Origin: Spirochaetales bacterium
GTDB lineage: Bacteria > Spirochaetota > Spirochaetia > DSM-2461
DNA length: 52,736 nucleotides
Assembly: GCA_028532905.1 (NCBI GenBank)
Contig: JAQQAM010000085.1
Span: forward strand, 1-52,736
Direction of reading: 5' to 3'
The position numbers and the translations under genes are program-made. Shown piece by piece: positions 1,432 to 18,851 of the stretch. The first letter of the stretch is position 1. Every line of letters starts with the position of its first letter. The notes beneath the pieces are model-generated. The model saw only the letters and a list, made by a program, of their open reading frames with translations, did no database searches and had not been told where the DNA came from.

Positions 1432-2216
1432 ATGAAAAAGAAAAATGTACTGTTTATCACAACTGACCAGCAGCAGCCTTCCGGTAAGTGAGTACTGCCT
1501 GGGAGACTATTTGAAACACAAAGGATATGAAACCCATTTCAAGTCTCAACAGGAAGAAGTTCATTCCTCGACCTATGTGGGAGATCAAACCAGCAGCTAT
1601 GAGAATCTTGAAGATGATCCGAACCTCGAGAATTATCCAAAAGTAGTAGAAAACTACCTTAAAACGGGACGTATGCCTTACTTTAACGGCGGAGGCCTCA
1701 AAGTCACCGACGATAAGGATATCGAAATCATCATAAGAGCTTACTGGGGGGGGGGCCATTTCTCTGATTGATAAAAATATTGGGCGTATCATGAAGATCC
1801 TGAAAGATGCAGGACTACGGGATGACACATTGGTCATCTTTACGACAGATCACGGGCAATACTTGGGTGCCCATGGAATGATAGAGAAAAGTAGGGGTCT
1901 GCTGGGAGGAATTTATCAATGGACACTTTTCTCCTTTATAGATATTGTTCCGACGATTCTGGATTTTCTTGGAGTCCTTGAAGAAAACGGTCTTCCAGCA
2001 ATACCCTGCGACGGGATTTCACAAAAAGCGAGGCTTCAGGAGAAAGAGGAAGGCCGCAGAAAATCACTGACTGCTAATCATACCAATTCTGTCCTGGATA
2101 CAGCCTTAGCTGATCAGCAATACATAATTGTAAAGCACAAAATAATCGAGGTCAGTTGCCGGGAGTTCAGTAATTCCATACTGAACAACGCTCTGAAATT
2201 CCTTCGTATCGGGTAG
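1432..2216 (+). pseudogene. sulfatase pseudogene (multiple deletions and frameshift)
   Basis: Sulfatase pieces are recognisable in order. The first is MKKKNVLFITTDQQQ (start 1432), the classic metal-binding N-terminus, which ends at a stop after residue 19. Next is SEYCLGDYLKHKGYETHFK in another frame, then AISLIDKNIGRIMKILKDAGLRDD, then LVIFTTDHGQYLGAHGMIEKS. The last piece is DIVPTILDFLGV. The segment that should carry the catalytic C/S-x-P-x-R is missing, and parts of the middle and the region after GMIEKSRG are also gone. A run of ten G at 1746-1755 breaks the frame; nine would join the two halves as YWGGAISLID. The gene cannot make an active sulfatase. An intact, different sulfatase lies at 6633-8150. 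Confidence 0.85.
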
Positions 2217-2412: not shown

Positions 2413-3360
2413 TTATGAATAACCACCACAGGTCCTATCACCGGCTGGCAAAACCGGTCCCTCCATCCCCAGTTGAACTGACTCTCTGACAATCTCCAGA
2501 TATCGTCGGATATAATCTTTTTCCAGAGCCGACTTCCTGTAGATGACTCCGCTGGGAAAGGTTGCACGACGCATATCTGGATGAATTTCTTTCAAACCGA
2601 ACTGTTCGGCAATGGTATGAATAAACTGGGGTAGAGAAGTAATGTATTCTGTGGCGCTGACTACTTCCAGAAGGTTGATCATAGAGCCGCTGATATATTT
2701 TATTCTCGTTCTGAAGGCGGCGCTGATCTGATGATCGTCCTTTGCATCTTCTGCGATCTGGTTATTATGAGAAAAAACAGCAAAATCATACAGTCGTAAA
2801 TCCATCTCGCTGTGACTCTCTTTTGCAAAAACAGGATGCCTCCAGGATGCGAAGAAAGAGAAAAAGACATTCATGAGATGCTCGAAAACAACTCCTTCGG
2901 ATGGTTTTAAAGATCCAATATCGCAAAAGATCAGATCAAAATGCCCTTCCAGAAACTGCTCATATAGAGTTTGAGAATACCCGGTGATAATTTTCATCTG
3001 CATATCAGGGAATTCCTTTGAATACTGCAGAACAGCATTGGGAAGAACGCCGTACTGCCACACAAGACCTGAGCCCACTCGTAACTGGCGGATATCTTTG
3101 TTCTTTATATAGTCAATTTCCTGAAGGGCGTAACGGAATTCATTTCCCATAGAGCAGACCTGTTTGTAGAGAACTTTACCGTATTCGGTGATCTCCACGC
3201 CCTTGTTTCTGCGAATAAATAAGGGGACATCCATTATCTCTTCCAGGATTTTTAAGCTGCGGGAGAGAGCAGGTTGGGAAATATGCAGCTTTTCCGCCGC
3301 CCTTAGAACCGATGAAGTCTCGGCTACCGCTTGAAAATGCTCGAGATATCTATGAAGCAA
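2413..3360 (-). CDS. LysR-family transcriptional regulator
   Basis: The N-terminal winged HTH has the LysR pattern: LEHFQAVAETSSVLRAAEKLHISQPALSRSLKILEE, then VPLFIRRNKGVEITEYG. A periplasmic-binding-protein-like effector domain follows to the end. The chosen start is the TTG at 3360-3358, because GGGGGAGA lies just upstream and the protein then begins at the usual distance from the HTH (315 residues). In-frame ATGs at 3411 and 3408 would add 17 residues but have no ribosome site. It is divergent from tctC, the standard arrangement for a LysR activator of a transport operon, and probably senses the carboxylate that TctCBA imports. Confidence 0.9.
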   Translation of the reverse strand: MLHRYLEHFQAVAETSSVLRAAEKLHISQPALSRSLKILEEIMDVPLFIRRNKGVEITEYGKVLYKQVCSMGNEFRYALQEIDYIKNKDIRQLRVGSGLVWQYGVLPNAVLQYSKEFPDMQMKIITGYSQTLYEQFLEGHFDLIFCDIGSLKPSEGVVFEHLMNVFFSFFASWRHPVFAKESHSEMDLRLYDFAVFSHNNQIAEDAKDDHQISAAFRTRIKYISGSMINLLEVVSATEYITSLPQFIHTIAEQFGLKEIHPDMRRATFPSGVIYRKSALEKDYIRRYLEIVRESVQLGMEGPVLPAGDRTCGGYS

Positions 3361-3440
3361 AAATCTCCCCCTTCCACTTTTGATATAATATTTTATTATA
3401 CCCAGCATCATTTATTATATTAGACAGTATAACAGACTGA

Positions 3441-3457: not shown

Positions 3458-3501
3458 AGGATGTAATTACACCATATTCATTTTTCTAAAGGAGTCTATT
3501 G

Positions 3502-4506
3502 ATGACACGCAAAAGTATGGCGGCAATACTGCTATTATGCTGCCTAATCATTCCCGCTTTCTCTAATGGTCAGGGAGAATCCAATTTCCCCAACCGGCCC
3601 GTACAGAATGTTTTTCCCTGGAGCCCAGGTTCAACCTATGCGGCATCTCAGGTCGTTGCAAATGCTATGGCCGAAAACATGGGAACCACCATGAGCGTCA
3701 CCTCCACAACAGGAGCCGGCGGGGTCAAAGCTGCTATGACTGTCATGTCCAAACCAGCCGACGGATATACTGTATTTGATGCATATGTTGCTCCTCTCAT
3801 CCTGGCCCCTCTTTTCGGAAAGGCCGACTATACATTTGAAGACTGGAAACCCCTCTACGGTGTAGCTTCAAACGCTTTTACAATAGTTGTCCGCAAAGAT
3901 GATGAGCGTTTTCCAGACCTTACCGCACTGATAGAATACGCCAAAGCCCATCCGGGAGAGTTGAAATACTGTGCCGGAGGAGATGTATCTCTTCCTCATA
4001 TGGCCGCAGCATCACTTTTGAAAAATACGGGGGCTGTAACCAGGCACGTTCCGTATAATGATACCAACGAGGGCATCAAGGACATGCTGGCGGGTGAGTT
4101 GGATTTTGACATTATGAACTCCGGAGGCTATCAGACCTTCAAGGACGATGTCCGCATTCTAGCAGTCCTGAGTGATCTGCCCCAGCCAGCCTTCCCCGGT
4201 CAGCCCCTGGCTAAAGATTTCGGCTACTGCATTGGTCTTGACGGGTTGGCTGCGACCGGTTGGACCTGGTGGGTCGTACATAAAGATACTCCCGATGATA
4301 TCACAGAAATTCTCCGTACAGCACTGAAAGAGGCACTGGATGATCCGAAAGTTCAAAAATCCCTTTCGGATATGGGATACCTGCCTATGCCAACAGATGT
4401 TTACAGCCCTGAGAACTATACGGAAGAATGCACCATCATGACCGCCCAGCTCAAATCGGCTCTTGCTGCAATTGAATGGGAAAAAGAAGAAATTAAAAAA
4501 TACTAG
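3502..4506 (+). CDS. tctC: TctC/Bug-family tricarboxylate-type binding protein
   Basis: 334 residues with a signal peptide (MTRKSMAAILLLCCLIIPAFS) and a mature start NGQGES. The body has the Bug/TctC pattern: FPNRPVQNVFPWSPG, GAGGVKAAMTVMSKPADGYT, then FEDWKPLYGVASN and YAKAHPGELKY. It is the periplasmic receptor of a tripartite tricarboxylate transporter and binds a carboxylated small molecule. GGAG at 3491-3494 is 7 bases from the ATG at 3502 and only 4 from the TTG at 3499, so ATG is preferred. It is first gene of tctC-tctB-tctA-sulfatase. A hairpin follows the stop, which may raise its yield over the membrane genes. Confidence 0.93.
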   Translation: MTRKSMAAILLLCCLIIPAFSNGQGESNFPNRPVQNVFPWSPGSTYAASQVVANAMAENMGTTMSVTSTTGAGGVKAAMTVMSKPADGYTVFDAYVAPLILAPLFGKADYTFEDWKPLYGVASNAFTIVVRKDDERFPDLTALIEYAKAHPGELKYCAGGDVSLPHMAAASLLKNTGAVTRHVPYNDTNEGIKDMLAGELDFDIMNSGGYQTFKDDVRILAVLSDLPQPAFPGQPLAKDFGYCIGLDGLAATGWTWWVVHKDTPDDITEILRTALKEALDDPKVQKSLSDMGYLPMPTDVYSPENYTEECTIMTAQLKSALAAIEWEKEEIKKY

Positions 4507-4515
4507 AAATTAATA

Positions 4516-4553
4516 AGGGATCGATGTCTGAGAAATTTGCCGCAACGATCCCT
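4516..4553 (+). other. intercistronic hairpin between tctC and tctB
   Basis: AGGGATCG at 4516-4523 pairs perfectly with CGATCCCT at 4546-4553 (8-bp stem, 22-base loop). No T run follows, so it is more likely a message-stabilising or attenuating structure than a full terminator. Confidence 0.45.
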
Positions 4554-4597
4554 ATCAAAACCCCTGTCCCAGAAAAGGGATGGGGGTGGAGGTCTTA

Positions 4598-5101
4598 ATG
4601 AATATGAAAAAAAAAGATGTATCCGAACTTTTTGTGACCTGGCTTTTTGCCTTACCTGTTTTTGTGGCTCTTTTTGAAATGCACACAAAATTTGTAGAAA
4701 AAGGGATGCACCAGGGAGGTGGTGAAACCAATGCTGCCATGTTCCCGAGAATGCTCAGCTGGCTTTTACTCTCCCTGATAATTGTCAGAACAGCGGATAT
4801 TCTCATAAAATCACGTAAAAAACATGAAAATCATGAACCTGTTATCCTATTTGAAAAGGCGGGAAGAAAACGCCTGGTTATGATTTCCGGCATACTTGTC
4901 CTTTACTTCTTCGGATTGGGAATTTTAGGTTATTATGCGGCCACTCCTCTGGCGCTGGCAGGATTCTTTCTGGTTTTGGGTCTGAAGAAGCCCATCATTC
5001 TGATTCCTCTCTGCCTGGGGGTCACCGTTGCAGTATGGTATGTGTTCGGCATCCTGCTCAAAGTAATCCTTCCCGTCGGCCGATTCGGTTTGTATATCTA
5101 G
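4598..5101 (+). CDS. tctB: TctB-family small membrane subunit of tripartite tricarboxylate transporter
   Basis: About 167 residues, with four hydrophobic segments: FVTWLFALPVFVALF, MLSWLLLSLIIVRTA, LVMISGILVLYFFGLGILGYYAATPLALAGFFLVLG and IILIPLCLGVTVAVWYVFGILL. This is the TctB (DUF1468) layout of the small integral subunit paired with TctA. The start at 4598 is chosen because GGAGG lies five bases upstream; an in-frame ATG at 4580 lacks a site. The end FGILLKVILPVGRFGLYI is typical for the family. Located between tctC and tctA, with tctA beginning 8 bases later. Confidence 0.88.
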   Translation: MNMKKKDVSELFVTWLFALPVFVALFEMHTKFVEKGMHQGGGETNAAMFPRMLSWLLLSLIIVRTADILIKSRKKHENHEPVILFEKAGRKRLVMISGILVLYFFGLGILGYYAATPLALAGFFLVLGLKKPIILIPLCLGVTVAVWYVFGILLKVILPVGRFGLYI

Positions 5102-5109
5102 GAGTCTAA

Positions 5110-6636
5110 ATGTTTACTGAAATTCTATCCGCCGGATTTCCGGCTTTCTTCGGAATCCAGCAGCTCCTATTTACAGGATTTGGCGTTTTAATGGGGATCA
5201 TCATCGGCATCCTGCCGGGGTTAGGCCCCCTCTTGGGATTAACTCTTCTGACACCACTGGCCATGAATATGAATCCCTTTACCGGGATGGGACTACTCAT
5301 CGGAATATTCGTTGGAGGGACCGCTGGAGGAGCTATCAGCGCCATACTTCTTAGGATTCCCGGAACCCCTATTGCAGCAGCTACGTTGCTGGACGGCTAT
5401 CCCCTGGCCTCAAAAGGCAAGGCGCCATTCGCGGTAACCCTGGCCATATCCACATCCGCTATCGGAGGAATCATCGGAGGAATTTATCTGATCTTCTTAT
5501 CTCCTCTCCTGGCACGTGTAGCCCTGAAGTTCTCTCCTCCAGAATATTTTGCCCTGGCTCTAACCGGTGTGGTCTGTATCGCTGTGGTCTCCAGGGAGTC
5601 AACAATAAAGGGGCTGATGGTTGGAAGCCTGGGACTTCTTCTGTCCACCATAGGGATGGATCCATTTATGAGCAATTTCCGGTTTACTTTCGGAACTATT
5701 GCCCTGGCAGGAGGGATCGGGATCGTCCCGATGGTCATCGGCCTATTCGCTATCAGCGAAATGTTAATTCAGGTGGAACAGGGGGATTTCGAAAGGTCTC
5801 CTCATCTGAAAGCATTCCTCCCTCCTCTGGCCGGCATCACCGAAAACTTCAAACAGCTCTTTAACCTTTTCCGGTCCAGTTCACTGGGAACATTCATCGG
5901 AGCCCTCCCGGGAGCTGGATCAGTGATAGCCAGTTTCGTTTCTTATGCTGTAGCAAAAAACAGCTCCCGGTACCCAGAAAAGTTCGGTACTGGAATCCCA
6001 GACGGAGTCATAGCCACTGAATCGGCAAATAATGCCTGCTGCGGAGGGACTCTCATTCCATCTCTCACACTGGCTCTCCCAGGCGATCCCTGCTCGGCCA
6101 TGCTGCTGGCGGCTCTTATGCTTCTGGGATATATTCCAGGACCCCGACTCTTCGTCCAGAGTCAGGATCTGGTAGGGGGCATTTTCCTGGCTTATATAAC
6201 TTCAAATATTTTTCTTTTGTTCCTGGGACTAGCCTTCCTTCCTCTCTTCGTCAAAGTGCTGAATGTAAAGAAAAAGTACCTGATTCCTGTGATTCTGATC
6301 CTCTGTGCTGTTGGTTCCTATGGTATGGAAACCTCAATAAACGATCTGTGGATAACTCTCATCTTCGGGATTCTGGCCTTTGGCTTGAGAAAGTTCGAGT
6401 ACCCTCTTGCCCCATTCGTGATCGCCAATGTCCTTGGCCCCATTATGGAAGAGAACTTCAGGCGATCTCTTATTATGTCCGGAGATGATCCTGCTATATT
6501 TTTCACGAGACCTATTTCAACAAGCATACTGGCGGCCAATTTTCTGCTCCTTGCTATTACCCTCATACCCTTCCGTAAAATACGGAGGAAGAGGACCCTA
6601 GAAAAAAACATCACAGAGGAAAACATAACATCATGA
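5110..6636 (+). CDS. tctA: TctA-family large permease of tripartite tricarboxylate transporter
   Basis: 508 residues with about a dozen hydrophobic segments. Family motifs are seen near the start (GVLMGIIIGILPGLGPLLG) and in the middle (LGTFIGALPGAGSVIASF), the two glycine/proline loops shared by all TctA proteins. ESANNACCGGTLIPSLTLALPG is also conserved. It is the transport channel of the secondary, ion-driven carboxylate importer. AGGAGTCTAA precedes the ATG. Its stop overlaps the sulfatase start by four bases (ATGA at 6633-6636), so the sulfatase is translationally coupled to the transporter. Confidence 0.95.
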   Translation: MFTEILSAGFPAFFGIQQLLFTGFGVLMGIIIGILPGLGPLLGLTLLTPLAMNMNPFTGMGLLIGIFVGGTAGGAISAILLRIPGTPIAAATLLDGYPLASKGKAPFAVTLAISTSAIGGIIGGIYLIFLSPLLARVALKFSPPEYFALALTGVVCIAVVSRESTIKGLMVGSLGLLLSTIGMDPFMSNFRFTFGTIALAGGIGIVPMVIGLFAISEMLIQVEQGDFERSPHLKAFLPPLAGITENFKQLFNLFRSSSLGTFIGALPGAGSVIASFVSYAVAKNSSRYPEKFGTGIPDGVIATESANNACCGGTLIPSLTLALPGDPCSAMLLAALMLLGYIPGPRLFVQSQDLVGGIFLAYITSNIFLLFLGLAFLPLFVKVLNVKKKYLIPVILILCAVGSYGMETSINDLWITLIFGILAFGLRKFEYPLAPFVIANVLGPIMEENFRRSLIMSGDDPAIFFTRPISTSILAANFLLLAITLIPFRKIRRKRTLEKNITEENITS

Positions 6637-8150
6637 AAACGATATTCCTTTTATTCGACTCACTGAACCGCAAAGCCCTCGGGCCCTACGATTCTTCTGT
6701 ACCAACACCGAATTTCGACCGATTGGCCCAAAAAAGTATTACTTTTACAAACCATTACGCTGGCAGCATGCCCTGTATGCCTGCCCGCCGGGATCAGCAG
6801 ACCGGCCGATACAATTTTTTCCACAGCGCCTGGGGCCCCATGGAACCCTATGATAATTCCCTACCTCGTCTACTGAGAGAAAGAAAAGGGGTTTATAGCC
6901 ATATCACTACCGACCATGCTCACTACTTCGAAGATGGCGGTGCTTTCTACTGCACCAATTTCAACACATGGGAGTTCCATAGAGGACAGGAATATGACCC
7001 CTGGATTCCGGAAATTAATCCCGATATGGAGATCTTGCGCAAACGCTATGATTCCAGGCACTATGATTTTTCTCACAGCTCCCGGAGCGAACACAAACTC
7101 CAGTTTGCCAAGAATAAAAATCACAGGATGAAAAAATCATCAGAATTTCCGATGGTTCGCTGTTTCGATTCAGCAATGGAATTTCTGGATATTAATAAAA
7201 ATGCAGAGAACTGGTTCCTTCAGCTGGAAACTTTCGACCCCCATGAACCTTTTGATATTCCGGAGGAATATCTTGACCGATATAATATAGACAAAACTAC
7301 GGTAATGAACTGGCCTAATTATGCACGGCCCGTAGAAAGCCCCGAAGAAATAGACCGAATCCGTCGAACTTATGCTGCTCTGGTGGCGTTCTGCGACGAT
7401 CAGCTCGGACGCCTTCTGGACAGAATGGATGCCGATAACATGTGGGACGATACATCATTAATCGTATCTACAGATCATGGGTTCCTCCTTTCTGAACATG
7501 ACTGGTGGTCTAAAGTCATCATGCCCAATTACCAGGAGATATCCCACATCCCCTTGTTTATTCATCATCCGAAGTACAAAATGAATGCCGGAACACAAAG
7601 AAATACTGTCACATCGGTCATTGACCTGATGCCAACCGTACTGGACTGGTATGACTGTGATATTCCGGAAGAAGTTAAAGGGCACTCCCTGACCGCACTG
7701 TTGGAAGAAGACAGGGATGAAGAGCGTGTTGTGAGCTGTGGAGTATTCGGAGGAACAGTTCTCATTACCGACGGCCGCTACGCATACCACCTTTGTCCAC
7801 AGCATCTGGACAGTACGAATTTATATGAATACAGGATACACCCCTGCCATATGAGGGGACAGTTTTCAATAAAGGAAATGCAGGATTCAGAACTATATAA
7901 TGGATTCAATTTTACCAAAGGAATGCCCTTGCTGAAGATAAAGGGACGAGATGATTCCCAACGGGTGCCCAATCATGATGCCCAGGGATTCCAGGATACT
8001 AAGACCAGGCTTTTCGACCTTTTCACCGATCCTACCGAAGAGAACCCCGTTTCCAATCCTCAGGTGGAAGCCCGTCTGAAATCTAGATTCCGACAAATTA
8101 TGGAAGACCATGACGCACCACAGGAGATGTTCGATAGATATGGAGTTTAA
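6633..8150 (+). CDS. cytoplasmic sulfatase (formylglycine type)
   Basis: 505 residues of the alkaline-phosphatase-like sulfatase fold. The metal site begins FLLFDSLNRKALGPYD. The signature Cys48-Met-Pro-Ala-Arg52 is the site where Cys is oxidised to formylglycine. LETFDPHEPFD, then LIVSTDHGFLLSEHDWWSK and HIPLFIHHP complete the active site. There is no signal peptide, so the enzyme acts in the cytoplasm and should cleave a sulfate ester after uptake. Coupling to tctA by a 4-bp overlap suggests the transporter brings in a sulfated carboxylate; this is inference. Activity needs a maturase (FGE or anSME), which is not in this window. Confidence 0.9.
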   Translation: MKTIFLLFDSLNRKALGPYDSSVPTPNFDRLAQKSITFTNHYAGSMPCMPARRDQQTGRYNFFHSAWGPMEPYDNSLPRLLRERKGVYSHITTDHAHYFEDGGAFYCTNFNTWEFHRGQEYDPWIPEINPDMEILRKRYDSRHYDFSHSSRSEHKLQFAKNKNHRMKKSSEFPMVRCFDSAMEFLDINKNAENWFLQLETFDPHEPFDIPEEYLDRYNIDKTTVMNWPNYARPVESPEEIDRIRRTYAALVAFCDDQLGRLLDRMDADNMWDDTSLIVSTDHGFLLSEHDWWSKVIMPNYQEISHIPLFIHHPKYKMNAGTQRNTVTSVIDLMPTVLDWYDCDIPEEVKGHSLTALLEEDRDEERVVSCGVFGGTVLITDGRYAYHLCPQHLDSTNLYEYRIHPCHMRGQFSIKEMQDSELYNGFNFTKGMPLLKIKGRDDSQRVPNHDAQGFQDTKTRLFDLFTDPTEENPVSNPQVEARLKSRFRQIMEDHDAPQEMFDRYGV

Positions 8151-8415: not shown

Positions 8416-9390
8416 TTATCCATTGAATTTTTCCACAGCATTACTAGGAGTAATCATTTCAGACTGCACTTCATAAACCTTTTCAGGGGTGAAATCGGGG
8501 TCTCTCATGATCTTATTACCAATTTCAACTGCTTTGTCTGTACACAGGGGATATGTAAATGTAGCGGCGAGAACTCCGTCTACGACTTTCTTGATTCCTC
8601 CGGCTTCTCCCTGAAGACCATCAACACCAACAAACAGGATATCCTTTTCCCGTCCCAGATCTCTCGCCGCAAGATAGCCGCCTACAGCCATGGGATCGTT
8701 ATGCCCATAAACAATATCAATATCAGGATGAGCCCGGAGGATTTCGGTCATTCTCACACGTGCATCACTCTGAAGCCAATTGCACACGGCCTCAGCTTCC
8801 TGAGTGATACCGCTATAAGTGTTCATGACATCCCAGGCTCCGTTAAATCTCTTCTGCTCTCCTTCCACACCAAGAAGGCCGCGCAGATCTACAATTTTCC
8901 CTTCTGGGGCTCCGTTTTTCACTTTAAGCATTTCAACCATATACTCACCGGCCAGTTTACCGATTGAGTAATTGTCACTCATAATCCAGGTTGTATAATT
9001 TTCAGCATCGACAATATCACGCTCGAGACAGATTACGGGGATTCCCGCTTTCTTTGCCTTACCCATAACCGCAGACAAGGGTCCCCTTTCATTGGGCGCC
9101 ACAATCAACAGATCGGGATTTTTCACAATAGCGGTCTCAATCTGAGAAATCTGACGGCTGTTGTCCTGCTGAGCATCCTGAATCTCAAATACGACATCGT
9201 CATACTGACTCCAGAGTGCCTTGAAAGAATCATTCTGAGCCGCTCTGTAGGGTTCGGCATTGTTACACTGGCTGAAAATTACCAGATAGCCGCTCTTTTC
9301 TGTGCTAACCTCCTTCTGACCTTCTCCAAAAACCGGCAAGGCCATAAAACACAGACACAGGATAAGAAAAACGGTAAGTCCTTTTTTCAT
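8416..9390 (-). CDS. sugar ABC importer, periplasmic binding protein (RbsB-like, CUT2)
   Basis: 324 residues. Signal peptide MKKGLTVFLILCLCFMALPVFG, mature start EGQKEVS. The type-I periplasmic binding fold of the RbsB family is plain: LVIFSQCNNAEPYRAAQNDSFKAL, then ETAIVKNPDLLIVAPNERGPLSAV and AGIPVICLERDI. KIVDLRGLLG, DIDIVYGHNDPMAVGGYLAARDLG and DILFVGVDGLQGEAGGIKKV complete it. It captures a sugar or related polyol for the permease and ATPase encoded upstream on the same strand. AAGGAGGAAAG before the ATG is a strong ribosome site, better than those of its partners, as expected for a protein needed in excess. The substrate cannot be read from sequence. Confidence 0.93.
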   Translation of the reverse strand: MKKGLTVFLILCLCFMALPVFGEGQKEVSTEKSGYLVIFSQCNNAEPYRAAQNDSFKALWSQYDDVVFEIQDAQQDNSRQISQIETAIVKNPDLLIVAPNERGPLSAVMGKAKKAGIPVICLERDIVDAENYTTWIMSDNYSIGKLAGEYMVEMLKVKNGAPEGKIVDLRGLLGVEGEQKRFNGAWDVMNTYSGITQEAEAVCNWLQSDARVRMTEILRAHPDIDIVYGHNDPMAVGGYLAARDLGREKDILFVGVDGLQGEAGGIKKVVDGVLAATFTYPLCTDKAVEIGNKIMRDPDFTPEKVYEVQSEMITPSNAVEKFNG

Positions 9391-9435
9391 TTTAGACTTT
9401 CCTCCTTAAAAATATTTTATCCGTCAACAACGGAT

Positions 9436-10464
9436 TCATCCTTTAGATCTGGCTTTTCGGGGCTGCTGCAGCCAGACAGCAACAATTATGATAACGGCTT
9501 TGGCCATCATCTCAATGTTGATATCTACCCCTTTCAGGCGGAAGGTATTGGTCAGGATGCCCATAATGAAAACTCCGATAATCGTTCCCACAATACTTCC
9601 TTTCCCTCCAGTCATTTTGGTTCCCCCGATAACGACTGCGGCAATGGCATCCAATTCATAGGAGACTCCATCATTGGGGCTTCCCTGATGATTCTGGGCG
9701 GCATGGAGCACTCCCGCAACACCGGTCAGCAGACCTGAGAGAGCATATGTGAACAGAAGGGTTTTGGTAACCGGAATACCGGCGTAACGGGAGCCGATGC
9801 TGTTGTCCCCAATAGACTTGACCCTGAGACCGAAGACAGTCCTTCCTAAAATAATCGACATAATCACCGCGATGACAACAAAGGTGGTGATGACCACAGG
9901 TTTGGGAGATATTAGGTTGGCGAAAACAGCGGAAATGTCATCGCCGAATCCGATGTCGATATTAGCGTTGTTTGTAAGGAACCTGGCGAATCCCCGCAAA
10001 CCGATCATTCCAGCCAAAGTTATGATGAACGGCTGGATATTCAGTTTTGAAATCAACAGACCATAAAGAGCACCGAATCCTGTGGTCAGCATGAGTGGAA
10101 GAAAAATAGCCAAGAAAATGTGCAAAGGTTGTCCGATTGACGGATTCATCTGCGTCAGGATTTTGGCGCAGAGTGTGGCCGCCAGAGCCAAAAGACTTCC
10201 AACACTCAAATCGATGCCTGAAGTTAGAATGATAAAAGTCATACCAATGGCAATAATGCCGTTTTCGGATACCTGACGGAATATGTCAGACAGGTTTTCG
10301 GGCGTCAGAAAAAGAATGCGACCCGTTCCATGCTGCCTCGGACTGAGAATCACAGCAAGGAACAGTATAAGAACCAACCCTGTAAAGCTTTGAAATTTCT
10401 TCAGTGTTCCTGTGCTCTTTTTAAAAACTGCCGGTATGGATTGTACTCCTTCGTTTAACCTCAC
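9436..10464 (-). CDS. sugar ABC importer, permease (RbsC-like, CUT2)
   Basis: 342 residues with 8-10 hydrophobic segments. Family landmarks are IIAIGMTFIILTSGIDLSVGS and PFIITLAGMIGLRGFARFLTN. GSRYAGIPVTKTLLFTYALSGLLTGVAGVL and LDAIAAVVIGGTKMTGGKGSIVGT follow. It forms the inner-membrane channel of the importer. It starts with GTG at 10464, four bases inside the end of the ATPase gene (GTGA), with AGGAGC upstream, so it is translationally coupled. The first 25 residues are a hydrophilic cytoplasmic tail. Confidence 0.92.
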   Translation of the reverse strand: MRLNEGVQSIPAVFKKSTGTLKKFQSFTGLVLILFLAVILSPRQHGTGRILFLTPENLSDIFRQVSENGIIAIGMTFIILTSGIDLSVGSLLALAATLCAKILTQMNPSIGQPLHIFLAIFLPLMLTTGFGALYGLLISKLNIQPFIITLAGMIGLRGFARFLTNNANIDIGFGDDISAVFANLISPKPVVITTFVVIAVIMSIILGRTVFGLRVKSIGDNSIGSRYAGIPVTKTLLFTYALSGLLTGVAGVLHAAQNHQGSPNDGVSYELDAIAAVVIGGTKMTGGKGSIVGTIIGVFIMGILTNTFRLKGVDINIEMMAKAVIIIVAVWLQQPRKARSKG

Positions 10465-11984
10465 CTTGTTGCTCCTTTATTTTTAGATCCTGCGACAACC
10501 GACGCGGTCGCATAGGACATAATTTCCTGTTGTGTCGTCTCTTTGCATTTCAGAACGGCGGTTGCCCTTCCTTCCGACAGCACCATGATTCTATCACAGC
10601 AGCGGAGAAGCTCCGGAAGTTCCGAACTGACGAAGATCAAACCTTTCCCGCGGGAGGCGAGGGAAGTAATGATCTCATAGATGTCCTCTTTGGCTCCCAC
10701 ATCAACGCCGCGGGTCGGATCGTCCAGAAACAGGACTTCCGGGTCGACCATCAGCCATCTGGCGACGAGAACCTTCTGCTGATTACCACCACTCAGGGTG
10801 TCAACACAACTGTTACCGGAAGGAGTCTTAATCCTGATATTGTCGATCAGACTGTCCACGTTTTTTACAATTTTGGAATTATCCAGAAATCCCTTTCTGT
10901 TCAAATCATCGAGGGTCGACAGTATCATATTCTCCTGAACACTCATGCTCATCATTAACCCCTGGAGTTTGCGGTCTTCAGGAATGAAGCCGATGCCCTT
11001 TTTAATGGCGTCTCCGGGATTATTTAGTTCCAGCTCCCCATCCTCGGTTCTGATACTTCCGGACCGCACCGGCTCCAGGCCAAAAAGAGCTTCTCCCAGT
11101 TCAGTACGTCCAGCGCCCACAAGCCCTGCAACTCCCAGTACTTCTCCCTTGTGAAGGTCAAAAGAGACATCCTTCATTTTAGGGGTAATCAGATTCCTGA
11201 CAGACAAGCATACATCACCGGTTGCCCAGCTGCGCTGTTTCTCCTTTCCGGAAACAGTACGACCGACCATCATTTCAATAATGTCAGTGGGATCTGTTTC
11301 GTCTGCGGACTTTTTACCGATGAACTCTCCATCTCTCATGACAGCAATTTCATCGGCTATTTGAAAAATTTCATTCATTTTATGAGACACGTAAATGATC
11401 GTGACATTATCTTTCTTCAGATCTCTGATGAGAGAGAAAAGGTTATCCACTGCATCATCCGTTAAGGAACTGGTCGGCTCATCCATAATAATGAGCCGGC
11501 AATTCATGCTGAGAATTCTGGCGATGACCACCAGCTGAATTTGAGCCATAGAGAGTTCTTCCATGGGCTTTCCCGGATTAACATCCAGCCGTACTTTCTC
11601 AAGCCAGGGCTTCACTTCTTCATTAATATTGTTGCTGTTTAGAAATCCCTTCTCCAGATGGGCGAAGGACATATTGTTCAAAATGATGTTCTGGGCAACT
11701 GATAAACTGGGAAAAACATCCAGTTCCTGCAGAACCAGTCCAATTCCCTTCTTCTGAGCCTCCAGTGGATTATCAAAAACAAGCTTTTCACCGTTAAGCC
11801 TGATTTCTCCACTGTCCAGAGCATAAATACCGGCGATCATCTTACCCAAAGTACTCTTTCCGGCTCCGTTCTCTCCCATTAAGGCACAAACTTTCCCTTC
11901 ATTAAATCGCAGACTTACATCTTTTACTGCATGAATGCCTCCGAAATGCTTGTTAACATTTTTCAGGACTAAGATTTCATCCAT
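10461..11984 (-). CDS. sugar ABC importer, double ATPase (RbsA-like, CUT2)
   Basis: About 507 residues with two ABC ATPase halves, as in RbsA/MglA. The first half has Walker A GENGAGKST, the modified signature LSMAQIQ and Walker B LIIMDEPTSSLT. The second half has a degenerate Walker A (GLVGAGRTE), the full signature LSGGNQQK and LFLDDPTRGVDVGAK; this asymmetry is normal for CUT2. It energises import through the next gene. The ATG at 11984 is preferred because AAAGGA precedes it; the ATG at 11999 lies closer to the predicted start of transcription and has no site. First gene of the operon, driven by the sigma-54 promoter at 12016-12035. Confidence 0.93.
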   Translation of the reverse strand: MDEILVLKNVNKHFGGIHAVKDVSLRFNEGKVCALMGENGAGKSTLGKMIAGIYALDSGEIRLNGEKLVFDNPLEAQKKGIGLVLQELDVFPSLSVAQNIILNNMSFAHLEKGFLNSNNINEEVKPWLEKVRLDVNPGKPMEELSMAQIQLVVIARILSMNCRLIIMDEPTSSLTDDAVDNLFSLIRDLKKDNVTIIYVSHKMNEIFQIADEIAVMRDGEFIGKKSADETDPTDIIEMMVGRTVSGKEKQRSWATGDVCLSVRNLITPKMKDVSFDLHKGEVLGVAGLVGAGRTELGEALFGLEPVRSGSIRTEDGELELNNPGDAIKKGIGFIPEDRKLQGLMMSMSVQENMILSTLDDLNRKGFLDNSKIVKNVDSLIDNIRIKTPSGNSCVDTLSGGNQQKVLVARWLMVDPEVLFLDDPTRGVDVGAKEDIYEIITSLASRGKGLIFVSSELPELLRCCDRIMVLSEGRATAVLKCKETTQQEIMSYATASVVAGSKNKGATR

Positions 11985-12015
11985 TCCTGTTCCTTTCATT
12001 TGATTTTATCCAATA

Positions 12016-12134: not shown

Positions 12135-13490
12135 ATGTCTACCCACAAGATGTCTAATAAATCGACAACCCCTGCAACAATACTCATTGTCGATGATAAA
12201 GAAAAAATTAGAACGAGCCTCTCTCTGTCTTTGAAAAACAGAGGATATTACCCTCTTTCTGCAGCCTCCATCGAGGAAGGCTGGGAAAAAATTATCTTAG
12301 AATCCGTCGATCTGGCTCTTATCGACATTAGACTGGGAGATGAGAATGGACTGGATCTCCTGCGAAAGATACAAACACTGGAATCTCCCATACCAGTACT
12401 GATCTTTACCGGACACGCGACCATAGAATCAGCCATTGAAGCGATCAAGCTTGGAGCTTTTAATTATCTGCAGAAACCGGTAAAGGTAGATCAGTTAGCT
12501 CCTATGATCGGCTCTGCTCTCAAACTCAGCAAACTGGAGCAGGAAAATAAAGAGTTACTCATGCAAATCCGGAAAAATGATGAACTCCTGATCGAAGGGG
12601 AAGTCCTTGAGAATTTATTTCGAAAAACTGTAAAGCTTGCCAAATCGGAATTACCTATACTGATCCAGGGAGAAAGCGGAACCGGTAAAGAGATGTTTGC
12701 CGAGCTGATACATAACAACTCATCCCGTAAAGACTGCCCACTTATTAAAATAAACTGCGCTGCTCTTCCTGAATCCCTCCTTGACGACGAACTGTTCGGA
12801 CACGAAAAAGGGGCATTTACCGGAGCAGACAAACAGTTCCGGGGTGTTTTCGAGAGAGCCCATGGGGGAACCTTATTCCTTGATGAGCTGGGGGATATGT
12901 CCCTGCAGACTCAGGCTAAAATACTGCGGGCAATTCAAAACCGTGAGATAAAACGACTTGGAGGAAACAGTGAGCTGGAAGTGGATGTCCGCTTTATAGC
13001 CGCTACGAACAAAGACCTGGATACAATGATGGCTGAGAAAATTTTCCGGGAGGATCTTTACTACAGACTCAGCACTGCCGTTATAACGATTCCTCCTTTG
13101 AGAGAAAGAAAGGAAACAATACTCCAGCTAACCGAACACTTCTTAAACCAATGTTCCGGAGACTCTATACGCAAGCAGACGCTCTCCCCCGATGTGAGTG
13201 ATTTCCTGGTGAGTTACGACTGGCCGGGCAACGTGCGAGAACTGAAAAGCACCGTCCAATACGCAAGTGCTGTAGCCTCTTCTCCGATGATATCTCTGGA
13301 TGATCTGCCCCGTAAACTGACCGACGCAATCCGTCCACGTACCAGCGGCAAGCTCCATCAGGAAATGGAGGAAGACCTGATAAAACGGGTAATGAAAGAA
13401 TGCGGCAATAACAAAAAAAGGACTGCCGAGATTCTGGGAATTAGCCGGGCGACATTATATAACAAAATAAAGGATTATAACCTGCCATGA
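12135..13490 (+). CDS. NtrC-type sigma-54-dependent response regulator
   Basis: 451 residues in three domains. The receiver (about 14-130) has phospho-acceptor Asp64 in LALIDIRL, acidic pocket DD at 20-21 and Lys114. The AAA+ domain has Walker A GESGTGKE (179-186), the sigma-54 contact loop GAFTGA (226-231), Walker B GGTLFLDELGDM and sensor II region YDWPGNVREL. The C-terminal Fis-type HTH is NKKRTAEILGISRATLYNKIKDY. It should activate the divergent importer promoter at 12016-12035. No ribosome site precedes the ATG, and the promoter would start transcription almost at that ATG. The gene overlaps the kinase gene by four bases (ATGA), so the pair is co-translated. Confidence 0.95.
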   Translation: MSTHKMSNKSTTPATILIVDDKEKIRTSLSLSLKNRGYYPLSAASIEEGWEKIILESVDLALIDIRLGDENGLDLLRKIQTLESPIPVLIFTGHATIESAIEAIKLGAFNYLQKPVKVDQLAPMIGSALKLSKLEQENKELLMQIRKNDELLIEGEVLENLFRKTVKLAKSELPILIQGESGTGKEMFAELIHNNSSRKDCPLIKINCAALPESLLDDELFGHEKGAFTGADKQFRGVFERAHGGTLFLDELGDMSLQTQAKILRAIQNREIKRLGGNSELEVDVRFIAATNKDLDTMMAEKIFREDLYYRLSTAVITIPPLRERKETILQLTEHFLNQCSGDSIRKQTLSPDVSDFLVSYDWPGNVRELKSTVQYASAVASSPMISLDDLPRKLTDAIRPRTSGKLHQEMEEDLIKRVMKECGNNKKRTAEILGISRATLYNKIKDYNLP

Positions 13491-15316
13491 CACGACCCGC
13501 CCTGATTACGTTAAAAGATGTGTCATATTCCTACGGTTCTGTAAAAGCCATAGAAGAGATAAATATTGAAATAACCCAAGGCGAGATACATGCCCTGATC
13601 GGTGAGCATGGCGCTGGTAAATCCTCTCTGGCACATATTCTAAGTGGATTTATTCAACCCAAAGGCTGTCTGTACTGGAAAGGCTCAGACTTAGGGGTCT
13701 ACAACTCAAAAATAGCCCGGAATCTGGGAATCTCCTACGTAACTCAGGGAACAGAACTTTTCGATTACCAATCAGTTGCCATGAACCTTTTCAACAACAA
13801 CCCGGGCGTCTTCAGTCGCTTTTTCTTCAATACTGCAAAAATTAATAAAAGAGCCGAAGAGTATCTGGAAAGGATAGGAAGCGATATCAATCCCCGTTCA
13901 CTGGTTGGTGAACTCTCAAAGCCCCAAAGGGTTTTTGTTGATATTCTGAGGCATATCTACAGAAACCCGAAGCTACTCATTTTGGACGAAGCGATTGAAA
14001 AACTAACTGCCGTAGACCTTTCCCGGGTTATGAAAATAATCAGGGAGCTGCGTAACAACGGTAGTACTATCGTATTCATTACGCACCGTATCGATGATGT
14101 TTACGAATTTGCAGATAGAGTCACCATACTAAGAAAAGGAAGAATAATAGTCACAGAAGCTGTCGAAAATATTGATAAGATAAACCTCATCAAGCTTGCC
14201 TACACTCAGATTACCCAAAGCAAGTCAATGATGAATGTGGATAAAGAATTTTATCATCTTCTCAAATATAATGAGGCCATTCTTGAGTTTCTTCCCATTG
14301 CCTTGTTTGTTGTCAACAGAGAGGAGAAGATCAAACTTATTAATACTTACGGCGAAAACTTCTTCGGCAGAAAAAAAGAAGAACTGCTTAACGAAGATTT
14401 TAATAAGATACTGGGACCGGAAAACAACGTACTGCTTGAGAAGATCCGCAGCCTCCTGAAAAAAAGGAAATGGGAGAATCTCTACCAGGTCCAAGTGAAA
14501 ATTGAACAGAAGATAATATGCGGCAATATTGTCGTTTACCCGATCCATGACGGGAATTATTACATGGGCAGCATCATCATTATTGATGACATGACCGAAC
14601 AGGAGGAATTAAGAAAAAAAATCCAGTTATCCGAGAAACTGGCATCCGTCGGTCTACTGGCTGCTGGGGTCGCCCATGAAATAAACAATCCTCTGGAAAT
14701 CATCAACAATTACCTGGATGTCCTCAAAGGATTGCAATCTTCGGACGAAGCTGTCTCCTTCATCAGATATATGGAGGAAGAAATGGATTCCATTGAGATG
14801 ATAATTGGAAACCTGATAACGTTTTCCGAGAAAAATCAATACGAAGACGAAGAACTAAATCTGCCTGATCTGCTCAGCCAGATGCTGAAACTTGTACAAT
14901 TTAATGCGCAGAAAAGGAATATTTCCATCAGTGCAGATTTCCCTGAAGAAGCTATCCGCATTAAGGCAAACAAAACAAAAATCAAGCAGGTTATTCTCAA
15001 CATTATCAGAAATGCATTCGATTCAATGACTGAAGGCGGAACGCTCACCGCAACAATCCGGACAACAGGAACGGATTCAGTAATTATTGAGTTTACCGAC
15101 ACTGGCACCGGGCTGCATGAAAAAGATATTAACAGTGTCATGCTACCCTTTTTTACAACAAAAGACGGTAATGAAGAAAACATGGGCCTCGGCTTATCCA
15201 TCGTATACGGTATTTTGAAAAGCTATAACGGTATGCTGGAGATAAAAAACCGGCAGGACAGAAGAGGTTGTATCGTAAGAATATCTCTACCTATGCTTTC
15301 AGCAAGAAATTCATGA
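13487..15316 (+). CDS. soluble histidine kinase with an N-terminal sugar-importer ABC ATPase domain (ABC-PAS-HisKA-HATPase fusion)
   Basis: 609 residues, no membrane segment. Residues 5-235 are an ABC ATPase like the N-half of RbsA. They show Walker A GEHGAGKSS (39-47), a Q-loop SYVTQG and an altered signature LSKPQR (143-148). Walker B is LLILDEAIEKLT (163-174) and the H-loop is FITHR (His200). The Walker lysine, the Walker B glutamate and His200 are kept; the usual DEPT is DEAI. Residues 260-370 look like a PAS domain. The kinase follows: GVAHEINNPLE with phospho-acceptor His397, N-box Asn509, DTGTG (538-542) and GLGL (567-570), of the NtrB type. It is coupled to the NtrC-type regulator and divergent from an RbsA-type importer. 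Inference: the ABC domain reads the state of the importer or its permease and sets kinase activity. I know no characterised protein of this layout. Confidence 0.93.
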   Translation: MTRPALITLKDVSYSYGSVKAIEEINIEITQGEIHALIGEHGAGKSSLAHILSGFIQPKGCLYWKGSDLGVYNSKIARNLGISYVTQGTELFDYQSVAMNLFNNNPGVFSRFFFNTAKINKRAEEYLERIGSDINPRSLVGELSKPQRVFVDILRHIYRNPKLLILDEAIEKLTAVDLSRVMKIIRELRNNGSTIVFITHRIDDVYEFADRVTILRKGRIIVTEAVENIDKINLIKLAYTQITQSKSMMNVDKEFYHLLKYNEAILEFLPIALFVVNREEKIKLINTYGENFFGRKKEELLNEDFNKILGPENNVLLEKIRSLLKKRKWENLYQVQVKIEQKIICGNIVVYPIHDGNYYMGSIIIIDDMTEQEELRKKIQLSEKLASVGLLAAGVAHEINNPLEIINNYLDVLKGLQSSDEAVSFIRYMEEEMDSIEMIIGNLITFSEKNQYEDEELNLPDLLSQMLKLVQFNAQKRNISISADFPEEAIRIKANKTKIKQVILNIIRNAFDSMTEGGTLTATIRTTGTDSVIIEFTDTGTGLHEKDINSVMLPFFTTKDGNEENMGLGLSIVYGILKSYNGMLEIKNRQDRRGCIVRISLPMLSARNS

Positions 15317-16835: not shown

Positions 16836-18851
16836 ATGTTTAAAATTTCAATTTTAATGATACTACTGGCTGTTGTATCACCCCTTTTTGCAGAAGGACA
16901 GTATGAAGCTGATGTCAGCTCCTATGAGTTTACAAATGAGAGCAAAGAGGCGACTGAGTTCACAGCCGAAGCCAATGCCGAGCTGTATGATATTCTGGAC
17001 TTTGAAGACAGAACCGCCTTTGAAAATGCAGACAGAGGATTTATCGCCCCCCTGATCAATGACGGTAATATTGACGGCATCTACTTTAACAGCGGTGTTC
17101 AGTTCATGATGGACAAAGAAGCTCCGGCCGAAGTAAACCCCAGTCTCTGGCGTCATGCCCAGCTGGTAAACAGAGGCGGACTGTACGAAGTTATGGAAGA
17201 CAAGATCTACCAGGTGCGCGGTCAGGATGTGAACACACTGACCATCATTGAAACTGAAAACGGAATTATCCTGTACGATCTCTGCCTTGTCCCCGAAACT
17301 TTTATTCAGGCCTACCAGCTGTATGAACAGGAAAGAGGAAGACGGGATCTGAAAGCCGTTATCATCTCCCACAACCATACCGACCACTACGGCGGAATCT
17401 CCGGTATCATCGATCTTGGCCTGGCTACCCAGGAACAGTTTGACTCAGCCGAAATTCCCGTTTACGTCCCTGAGCATTTTCAGAGAGAACTTGTTTCAGA
17501 ATCGGTTCTCTACGGAAATATCATGTCCAGAAGAGCCCTGTACCAGTACGGTTACGGACTGGCCTTCAGTCCCCGGGGTATCATTACAGCCGCTCTGGGT
17601 CCCCTGACTCCTGCCGGACAGAACGCCATGCCCAGTTCTGTTGTTGAAATAACTGAAGACAACCTGAACATTACCGTAGACGGCCTGGACATCGAGTTCA
17701 TGCTGGTTCCCGAATCGGAAGCTCCTGCGGAAATGGTTTTCTATATCCCCGAATGGAAGGCTCTGACCATGGCTGAAGTTGTCAACCAGCTGCAGCACAA
17801 CGTGTACACCCTCAGGGGAGCACCCATCAGAGACGCCAACAAATGGGCACAGTACATTCACGATGCCATTATCAGATGGGGTGATGATGTGGAAATCCAC
17901 TTTGGTCCTCACACATGGCCTGAATGGGGCAATGAGAATGTCAACAACTACCTCAAAGCTCAAAGAGATATCTACAGAGCTATCTTTGACCAGACTACAC
18001 GCCTGGCCAACTACGGTTACCGCCCCTATGAGATTGTTGAGAGGATTGATATTCCCGAGCCCATCATGAACAACTTTGCCAACCGCGGTTACTACGGACA
18101 GTTTGAGAACAACGTATACGCCACCTATGTCAACAACATCGGTTGGTTCAATGCCAACCCCACCGAGCTGGCCCGTCATACCGACGCCGAATCCGGAAGA
18201 CGTTATGTGGAAGCCTTCGGCGGTGAAGAAGTGGTTATTGCCAAGGCTCTGGAATACTTCAAAGACGGAGACTACAAGTTCACAGTTGAGCTTCTCAACC
18301 ACATCATCTCCTACAACGGAGAGAACAAAAAAGCCAACTACCTTGCGGCGGATGCCTTCGAGCAGATCGGTTACCAGGAAGAGTCCGCTCTGGCCCGTAA
18401 CTGGTTCCTCATGGCCGCCCTGGAACTGCGGAGAGACGACAATGTTCCTATGATCGTAAACTCTGCCGGTCCCGGTGTCCTGAATGCCATCCCCGCCGAG
18501 CTGATGCCCACTGTTCTTTCCACCCAGGTTGATCCCCGAAAGGGACTCGAGGCGGGAGAGCTGAAACTGACTCTTATTCTGAACGGTACAAGTCTTGATC
18601 TTATTGCAGAAAACGGAGTTCTTAACGGTGCCGTATCTAAGGGAGTCCTGGAGACAGACGTAACTGTAGAAACAAACAATGTGGCATTTTTTGCCCTGCT
18701 CACCGGTGCTGTGGATTTAGAAACCGTAGAAAAAGCCGGTATGATTGAGATCGATGGAGATGTATCTGTATTCGAGAAATTCCTCGGAATCATCGACACT
18801 GAAATCCCCAACAACTACAACCTGGTAAAACCCCGTTATATCAGCGAGTAA
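16836..18851 (+). CDS. exported SdsA-type alkylsulfatase (metallo-beta-lactamase fold)
   Basis: 671 residues with signal peptide MFKISILMILLAVVSPLFA and mature start EGQYEADVS. The metal site is His179-x-His181-x-Asp183-His184 in IISHNHTDHYGG. Further metal ligands match the SdsA1 family: Glu in ESEAPAEMVFY, Glu in MAEVVNQLQHNVYTLRG and His in FGPHTWPEWG. The helical dimer region (QRDIYRAIFDQTTRLANYGYRPYEIVE) and an SCP2-like C-terminal domain (about 540-671) complete the family layout. It hydrolyses linear alkyl sulfates in the periplasm, releasing sulfate and an alcohol. It shows strong, uniform codon bias (frequent CTG, CCC and AAC), suggesting high expression. Cotranscribed with the Omp85-like gene. 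Confidence 0.92.
   Translation: MFKISILMILLAVVSPLFAEGQYEADVSSYEFTNESKEATEFTAEANAELYDILDFEDRTAFENADRGFIAPLINDGNIDGIYFNSGVQFMMDKEAPAEVNPSLWRHAQLVNRGGLYEVMEDKIYQVRGQDVNTLTIIETENGIILYDLCLVPETFIQAYQLYEQERGRRDLKAVIISHNHTDHYGGISGIIDLGLATQEQFDSAEIPVYVPEHFQRELVSESVLYGNIMSRRALYQYGYGLAFSPRGIITAALGPLTPAGQNAMPSSVVEITEDNLNITVDGLDIEFMLVPESEAPAEMVFYIPEWKALTMAEVVNQLQHNVYTLRGAPIRDANKWAQYIHDAIIRWGDDVEIHFGPHTWPEWGNENVNNYLKAQRDIYRAIFDQTTRLANYGYRPYEIVERIDIPEPIMNNFANRGYYGQFENNVYATYVNNIGWFNANPTELARHTDAESGRRYVEAFGGEEVVIAKALEYFKDGDYKFTVELLNHIISYNGENKKANYLAADAFEQIGYQEESALARNWFLMAALELRRDDNVPMIVNSAGPGVLNAIPAELMPTVLSTQVDPRKGLEAGELKLTLILNGTSLDLIAENGVLNGAVSKGVLETDVTVETNNVAFFALLTGAVDLETVEKAGMIEIDGDVSVFEKFLGIIDTEIPNNYNLVKPRYISE

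Follow-up and report, generated by a model that had tools for sequence, protein, structure and literature searches.

The stretch of DNA analyzed here (the window) is a contig of 52,736 nucleotides from a Spirochaetales bacterium (JAQQAM010000085.1, assembly GCA_028532905.1). It contains an operon in which the genes for the proteins of a tripartite tricarboxylate transporter (TTT), tctC, tctB, and tctA, are followed by a gene for a formylglycine-type (S1) sulfatase without an export signal. We suggest that the operon encodes an import-then-desulfate module, where a small sulfate ester would enter the cell with its sulfate on and be hydrolyzed in the cytoplasm. Judged from the genomic data, we consider this reading about 75% probable.

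The operon and its sulfatase

The order tctC, tctB, tctA, sulfatase, and the overlap of the sulfatase start with the tctA stop (ATGA), were proposed in an initial annotation of the window and were confirmed by direct reading of the open reading frames (Table 1). The three transporter genes are adjacent and their products all score above the curated domain cut-offs, which places them in the TTT family. The annotation also described the sulfatase as lacking a signal peptide, and this was borne out. There is no in-frame alternative start upstream, and Asp9 lies immediately behind the first strand (residues 2-8 in the AlphaFold model), which leaves no space for a signal peptide. All relatives in the alignment (34/34) have the same N-terminus, and the enzyme is predicted to be cytoplasmic. 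Read from the genes alone, a sulfatase without export signal whose gene is contiguous with importer genes constitutes an import-coupled cytoplasmic sulfatase module.

The CxPxR formylglycine motif is CMPAR in the window sulfatase. Asp9, Cys48, Pro50, Arg52, His95, His97, His204, Asp281, His282, and Lys294 are invariant among the 34 aligned sequences, and they align with the residues that bind the metal, act as nucleophile, or serve in acid-base catalysis in phosphonate monoester hydrolases and S1 sulfatases of solved structure. Residue roles in choline-sulfatase were taken from PMC5870055; Asp9, Cys48, Arg52, His97, His204, Asp281, His282, and Lys294 are the putative catalytic and metal residues of the window enzyme. 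A maturase is present in the genome, as anSME was found with 407.7 bits (TIGR03942, cut-off 349.45).

The sulfatase could not be assigned to a named family. Choline-sulfatase (TIGR03417, 107 bits against a curated cut-off of 433), the phosphonate monoester hydrolase PehA (NF045661, 134 bits against 900), and arylsulfatase (far below the curated cut-off) were all rejected as identities. The AlphaFold model (pLDDT 91) matched ulvan sulfatase 6hhm (Z 35.1, root-mean-square deviation 3.5 over 395 residues), phosphonate monoester hydrolase 2w8s (Z 34.1, 3.0 over 384), and iduronate-2-sulfatase 5fql (Z 33.8, 3.2 over 378). In these model comparisons the neighbors are nearly tied and single out no substrate.

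The enzyme could instead belong to the phosphonate monoester hydrolases or phosphodiesterases of its superfamily, in which case the TTT would import a phosphonate or phosphodiester. Phosphonate monoester hydrolases are the best phmmer matches and rank near the top among the structural ones, and the Asp-His metal pair and the CxPxR motif are common to both groups. However, the PehA score is far too low, the fold matches to carbohydrate sulfatases are equally good, and sulfate-handling genes (TauE/SafE, SulP, CysDN) lie beside some copies of the sulfatase family. We find this alternative very unlikely.

Recurrence of the pairing

The genome has six TctA genes and about 27 sulfatase genes. Three of these TctA genes have a PF00884 gene next to them, namely those in the window and at the loci C202 and C63. 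With the window locus excluded, the probability of finding a sulfatase gene beside two or more of the remaining five by chance is ~1e-3. At C202 the order is TctB-TctA-sulfatase-TctC, and the sulfatase belongs to the window family (42% identity). The C63 sulfatase (L036:7355-8712) belongs to another S1 subfamily and is 43-50% identical to sulfatases in Alteribacillus and another spirochaete (L059); its gene has one in-frame TGA near the start, representing either a pseudogene or an assembly error.

Marispirochaeta has the same gene order as the window, with 77% identity for TctC and 72% for the sulfatase. A search of 72,556 plasmids with the window TctC alone, the sulfatase not being part of the query, gave three records (Chelativorans, Salipiger, and Martelella), and in all three (3/3) TctC lies directly next to an orthologous family sulfatase, beside which there is a LysR gene. 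Among 385 Alphaproteobacteria and 296 Spirochaetota a close TctC relative was found in three genomes, sulfatase-adjacent in each, although two of these were pre-chosen centers and only G341 is independent. Further TctA-sulfatase pairings were found in sampled Alphaproteobacteria and Bacillota. The gene orders observed are TctC-B-A-Sulf, Sulf-TctC-B-A, TctB-A-Sulf-TctC, and TctC-Sulf-TctB-TctA, the last with another S1 subfamily.

The TctA tree groups the window sequence with Marispirochaeta and six alphaproteobacteria in one clade (support 100/99), in which every tctA is next to a family sulfatase gene (8/8). A chance adjacency of importer and sulfatase is ruled out by the plasmid matches, this clade, and the low probability calculated for the other TctA genes of the genome. 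The recurrence of TctA-sulfatase neighbors in Spirochaetota, Alphaproteobacteria, and Bacillota answers positively a check proposed with the initial annotation, and supports its suggestion that import is coupled to cytoplasmic desulfation. As a genomic association the TTT-sulfatase pairing is solid.

A plasmid of Salipiger abyssi (pPABY1, L122:9593-15786) has TctC-sulfatase-TctB-TctA-TauE/SafE-TIGR02186 in one gene run, with another TTT-sulfatase operon a few kb away.

Exchange of importers

Other family sulfatases are found with other TctA lineages, and the pairing was thus gained or lost several times. The sulfatase tree, at its well-supported branches, requires the TTT association to have changed at least 10 times. 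Where the partner is not a TTT, it is most commonly a CUT1 sugar ATP-binding cassette (ABC) importer, and otherwise a CUT2 or taurine-type ABC importer, a phosphotransferase system (PTS) permease, or a tripartite ATP-independent periplasmic (TRAP) transporter; the CUT1 and PTS partners were confirmed by record annotation, and the remaining types were assigned by similarity to representatives that had been recognized by eye. Since importer types differ among its loci, the sulfatase family retains an importer as such.

The orthologue of the C202 operon in Marispirochaeta has tctC directly after tctA and no sulfatase gene. The flanking genes are orthologous (identities of 74% for TctA, 60% for TctC, 67% for a PdxA-like protein, and 70% for an epimerase), so the sulfatase gene entered, or dropped out of, an already existing operon of sugar-acid type. 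The TctBAC operons at the loci L037 and L178 are orthologous and include PdxA-like, 5-keto-L-gluconate-epimerase-like, and split transketolase genes; the set comprises a form with an inserted sulfatase and one without.

On an Enterobacter hormaechei plasmid (L124:6314-9485) PTS IIC and IIB genes directly precede a family sulfatase gene, and a gene for an aryl-sulfate sulfotransferase lies upstream.

The substrate-binding protein

The window TctC falls in a clade of eight, to date always sulfatase-linked. The other members are 37-77% identical to it, and TctCs outside the clade are below 29%. Where other TctCs have GGx(T/S)D, all eight members have PG(A/S)T(M/Y) or a close variant, combining a one-residue deletion with absence of the Asp (8/8). 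This Asp was kept in all 27 distinct unlinked TctCs sampled (27/27), as well as in the aligned solved structures. It is conserved among characterized TTT binding proteins, and the Vibrio alginate protein needs it to bind its ligand (PMC13390454). The window TctC thus lacks the Thr-Asp motif, which is a feature of the ligand site and does not define the fold or the family. A GWxWW segment is invariant in the clade. The model of the window TctC (pLDDT 81) matches TphC and Bug proteins and resembles BugD and MatC.

Loss of the Asp was rejected as a mark of every sulfatase-linked TctC. Four other TctCs linked to the family, as well as two with other S1 sulfatases as partners, still have it, so the change is a mark of the window TctC clade rather than of sulfatase linkage at large. 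In the lineage of the C202 TctC the Asp is missing whether a sulfatase is present or not.

With the Asp gone, the group that anchors the ligand in the window clade may be a sulfate instead of a carboxylate. Extending this, a TctC clade found across Spirochaetota and Alphaproteobacteria could have given up the usual carboxylate site to recognize its ligand through the sulfate ester, and the TTT family would then include dedicated sulfated-sugar importers that serve a widespread, importer-exchanging family of cytoplasmic sulfatases. We put this wider proposal forward tentatively, as somewhat less probable than its opposite.

Neighboring genes and candidate cargo

Genes near family sulfatases in other genomes point to sugars or sugar acids. 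In Salipiger these include an IlvD/Edd dehydratase and a 2-keto-3-deoxygluconokinase-like kinase; DUF4432, a Gfo/Idh oxidoreductase, and a D-mannonate oxidoreductase with an L-rhamnose mutarotase were also found as neighbors. FGE genes (228-282 bits) adjoin the sulfatase at several loci and anSME genes at others. Candidate exit routes for sulfate are TauE/SafE, located within the second Salipiger TTT-sulfatase operon, and SulP, which together with anSME follows a family sulfatase and TctBAC in a Bacillota locus. CysDN lies near a Sinorhizobium copy.

No recurring aromatic-degradation genes were found at the family sulfatase loci read, and an aromatic sulfate was rejected as cargo. A sulfated sugar or sugar acid fits better, because of the sugar ABC and PTS partners and the sugar and sugar-acid enzymes in the neighborhood. 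In the window operon, the TTT would then probably carry the compound that the sulfatase hydrolyzes, a sulfated sugar or sugar acid of mono- to oligosaccharide size, which would be used for its carbon and not for its sulfur alone.

The initial annotation had proposed a small sulfated carboxylate. This is supported only in part; a carboxylate or aromatic nature is not established, given the sugar importers, the sugar-acid enzymes, and the lost TctC Asp. A sulfated carboxylate, e.g., a sulfated aromatic acid, bound by TctC via its carboxylate, would agree with TTT proteins of known ligand, which mostly bind carboxylates including sulfolactate and terephthalate (PMC5812351), and with the resemblance of the TctC model to TphC, BugD, and MatC. 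The clade-wide loss of an Asp that all sampled unlinked TctCs keep, the one-residue deletion, the sugar importers found as other partners of the sulfatase family, and the lack of recurring aromatic-degradation genes speak against it, and we regard this cargo as improbable.

Points against the module

Several observations weigh against an import-then-desulfate module. Most TTT operons lack a sulfatase: none of 13 has one in a sampled alphaproteobacterium and one of nine in Marispirochaeta, fractions that are not unbiased rates since both genomes were chosen for holding a family sulfatase. Sulfatase-linked TctCs outside the main clade retain the ordinary Asp motif, and their cargo may be ordinary. 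The window operon itself contains no catabolic enzyme, and the carbon product is guessed from other genomes. Finally, the sulfatase scores far below the cut-offs of named equivalog families, and its fold and metal ligands, common to sulfatases and phosphonate monoester hydrolases, would also suit a phosphodiester or phosphonate.

The scarcity of sulfatases among TTT operons would fit a looser connection, in which the two share an operon only since both serve growth on the same debris, the TTT importing an ordinary acid and the sulfatase acting on what another system imports. The C202-type TTT without sulfatase in Marispirochaeta and the large number of sulfatase genes in the genome studied here would also agree with this. 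It is hard to reconcile with the abutting genes in the three independent plasmid matches, with eight sulfatase-linked TctAs forming a clade, and with several gene orders and repeated new pairings, and we give it little credence.

Proposed mechanism

In the module we favor, TctC would capture a small sulfate ester in the periplasm, and TctAB would carry it over the inner membrane with an ion gradient, as expected from the transporter family. Cys48 of the co-translated sulfatase would be converted to formylglycine by the radical-SAM maturase of the genome (anSME), and the enzyme would then release sulfate and a desulfated carbon compound. The latter would feed into sugar or sugar-acid degradation pathways whose genes lie elsewhere. 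The operon is probably regulated by the divergent LysR protein. As the pairing recurs in distant bacteria, some bacteria probably import sulfated sugars or sugar acids whole and desulfate them only after import.

Features of the window

Table 1. Location of the TTT-sulfatase operon and flanking features in the window.
Feature	Positions	Strand	Basis and remarks
LysR-family regulator	2413..3411	-	HTH_1 70 bits, LysR_substrate 69 bits
TctC substrate-binding protein	3502..4506	+	PF03401 107 bits, cut-off 27; TTG at 3499 is a possible alternative start
TctB small membrane subunit	4580..5101	+	PF07331 57 bits, cut-off 29.1; ATG at 4598 is a possible start
TctA large membrane subunit	5110..6636	+	PF01970 461 bits, cut-off 29
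ATGA overlap of tctA stop and sulfatase start	6633..6636	+	4 bases, read directly
Predicted cytoplasmic formylglycine-type (S1) sulfatase	6633..8150	+	PF00884 123 bits, cut-off 25; CMPAR at residues 48-52
Terminator-like stem-loop	8320..8342	-	Between the sulfatase gene and the convergent ABC operon; consensus match only

The LysR gene is divergent from tctC with a gap of ~90 bases. Its position is conserved in Marispirochaeta, where the protein is 64% identical to that of the window, and a divergent LysR gene was also seen with alphaproteobacterial family sulfatases. The stem-loop downstream of the operon has a T tail in the minus-strand reading only, and the terminator count was near the shuffled mean.

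The convergent operon (8416-11999, minus strand) encodes a ribose-type ABC sugar importer. An apparently broken remnant of another S1 sulfatase was found at 1445-2216 (plus strand; weak PF00884 match over 26 residues). At 16836-18851 (plus strand) lies an unrelated type of sulfatase, an alkyl sulfatase of the metallo-beta-lactamase class (Alkyl_sulf_dimr 143 bits) whose N-terminus resembles an export signal. The gene at 13487-15316 (plus strand) encodes a sugar-type ABC ATPase domain (residues 23-170) fused to PAS, HisKA, and HATPase domains, i.e., an ABC ATPase-histidine kinase fusion, and adjoins the gene for a sigma-54 response regulator (12135-13490).

Comparison with known systems

Bacterial polysaccharide desulfation is usually described as extracellular or periplasmic. 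A sulfatase family fixed to importers suggests that part of the sulfated carbohydrate pool may enter cells with the sulfate on, which would change how genomes are read for the use of algal and host glycans. Cytoplasmic sulfatases coupled to import are known from Pseudomonas AtsA with its AtsRBC importer and from choline-sulfatase BetC. As in these systems, the window has a formylglycine sulfatase without export signal beside an importer, and import would precede desulfation. Unlike them, the importer is a secondary transporter of the TTT family, and the scores of its sulfatase fall far short of the cut-offs for choline-sulfatase and arylsulfatase.

The window sulfatase is like phosphonate monoester hydrolases (2vqr, 2w8s) and the dimeric sulfatases SpAS1/SpAS2 in fold, CxPxR motif, Asp-His metal pair, and active-site His and Lys. 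It differs from them in having only ~20-25% identity over aligned residues, in scoring far below the PehA cut-off, and in carrying a DHxH segment where they have the usual Lys-x-His.

Full-text searches of the open-access literature found no paper describing a TTT-sulfatase operon. Import-coupled cytoplasmic sulfatases being known in outline, the TTT version appears to be new as far as this literature was searched. The initial annotation had considered such cargo unusual for a TTT, a view that has to be softened, since known TTT cargo already spans a sulfonated acid and sugar diacids (sulfolactate and galactarate/glucarate; PMC5812351) and acidic oligosaccharides (alginate oligosaccharides; PMC13390454). 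The window operon has TctA, TctB, and TctC in common with known TTT (TC 2.A.80) operons, such as SlcHFG for sulfolactate and the alginate-oligosaccharide TTT of Vibrio sp. C42. In contrast to these, its partner enzyme is a predicted sulfate-ester hydrolase and its TctC belongs to a clade without the Asp of the Thr-Asp motif. Within the TTT family, for which the cargo is mostly unknown, this would define a group that can be tested against one class of ligand and that shows a clear residue change in its binding site.

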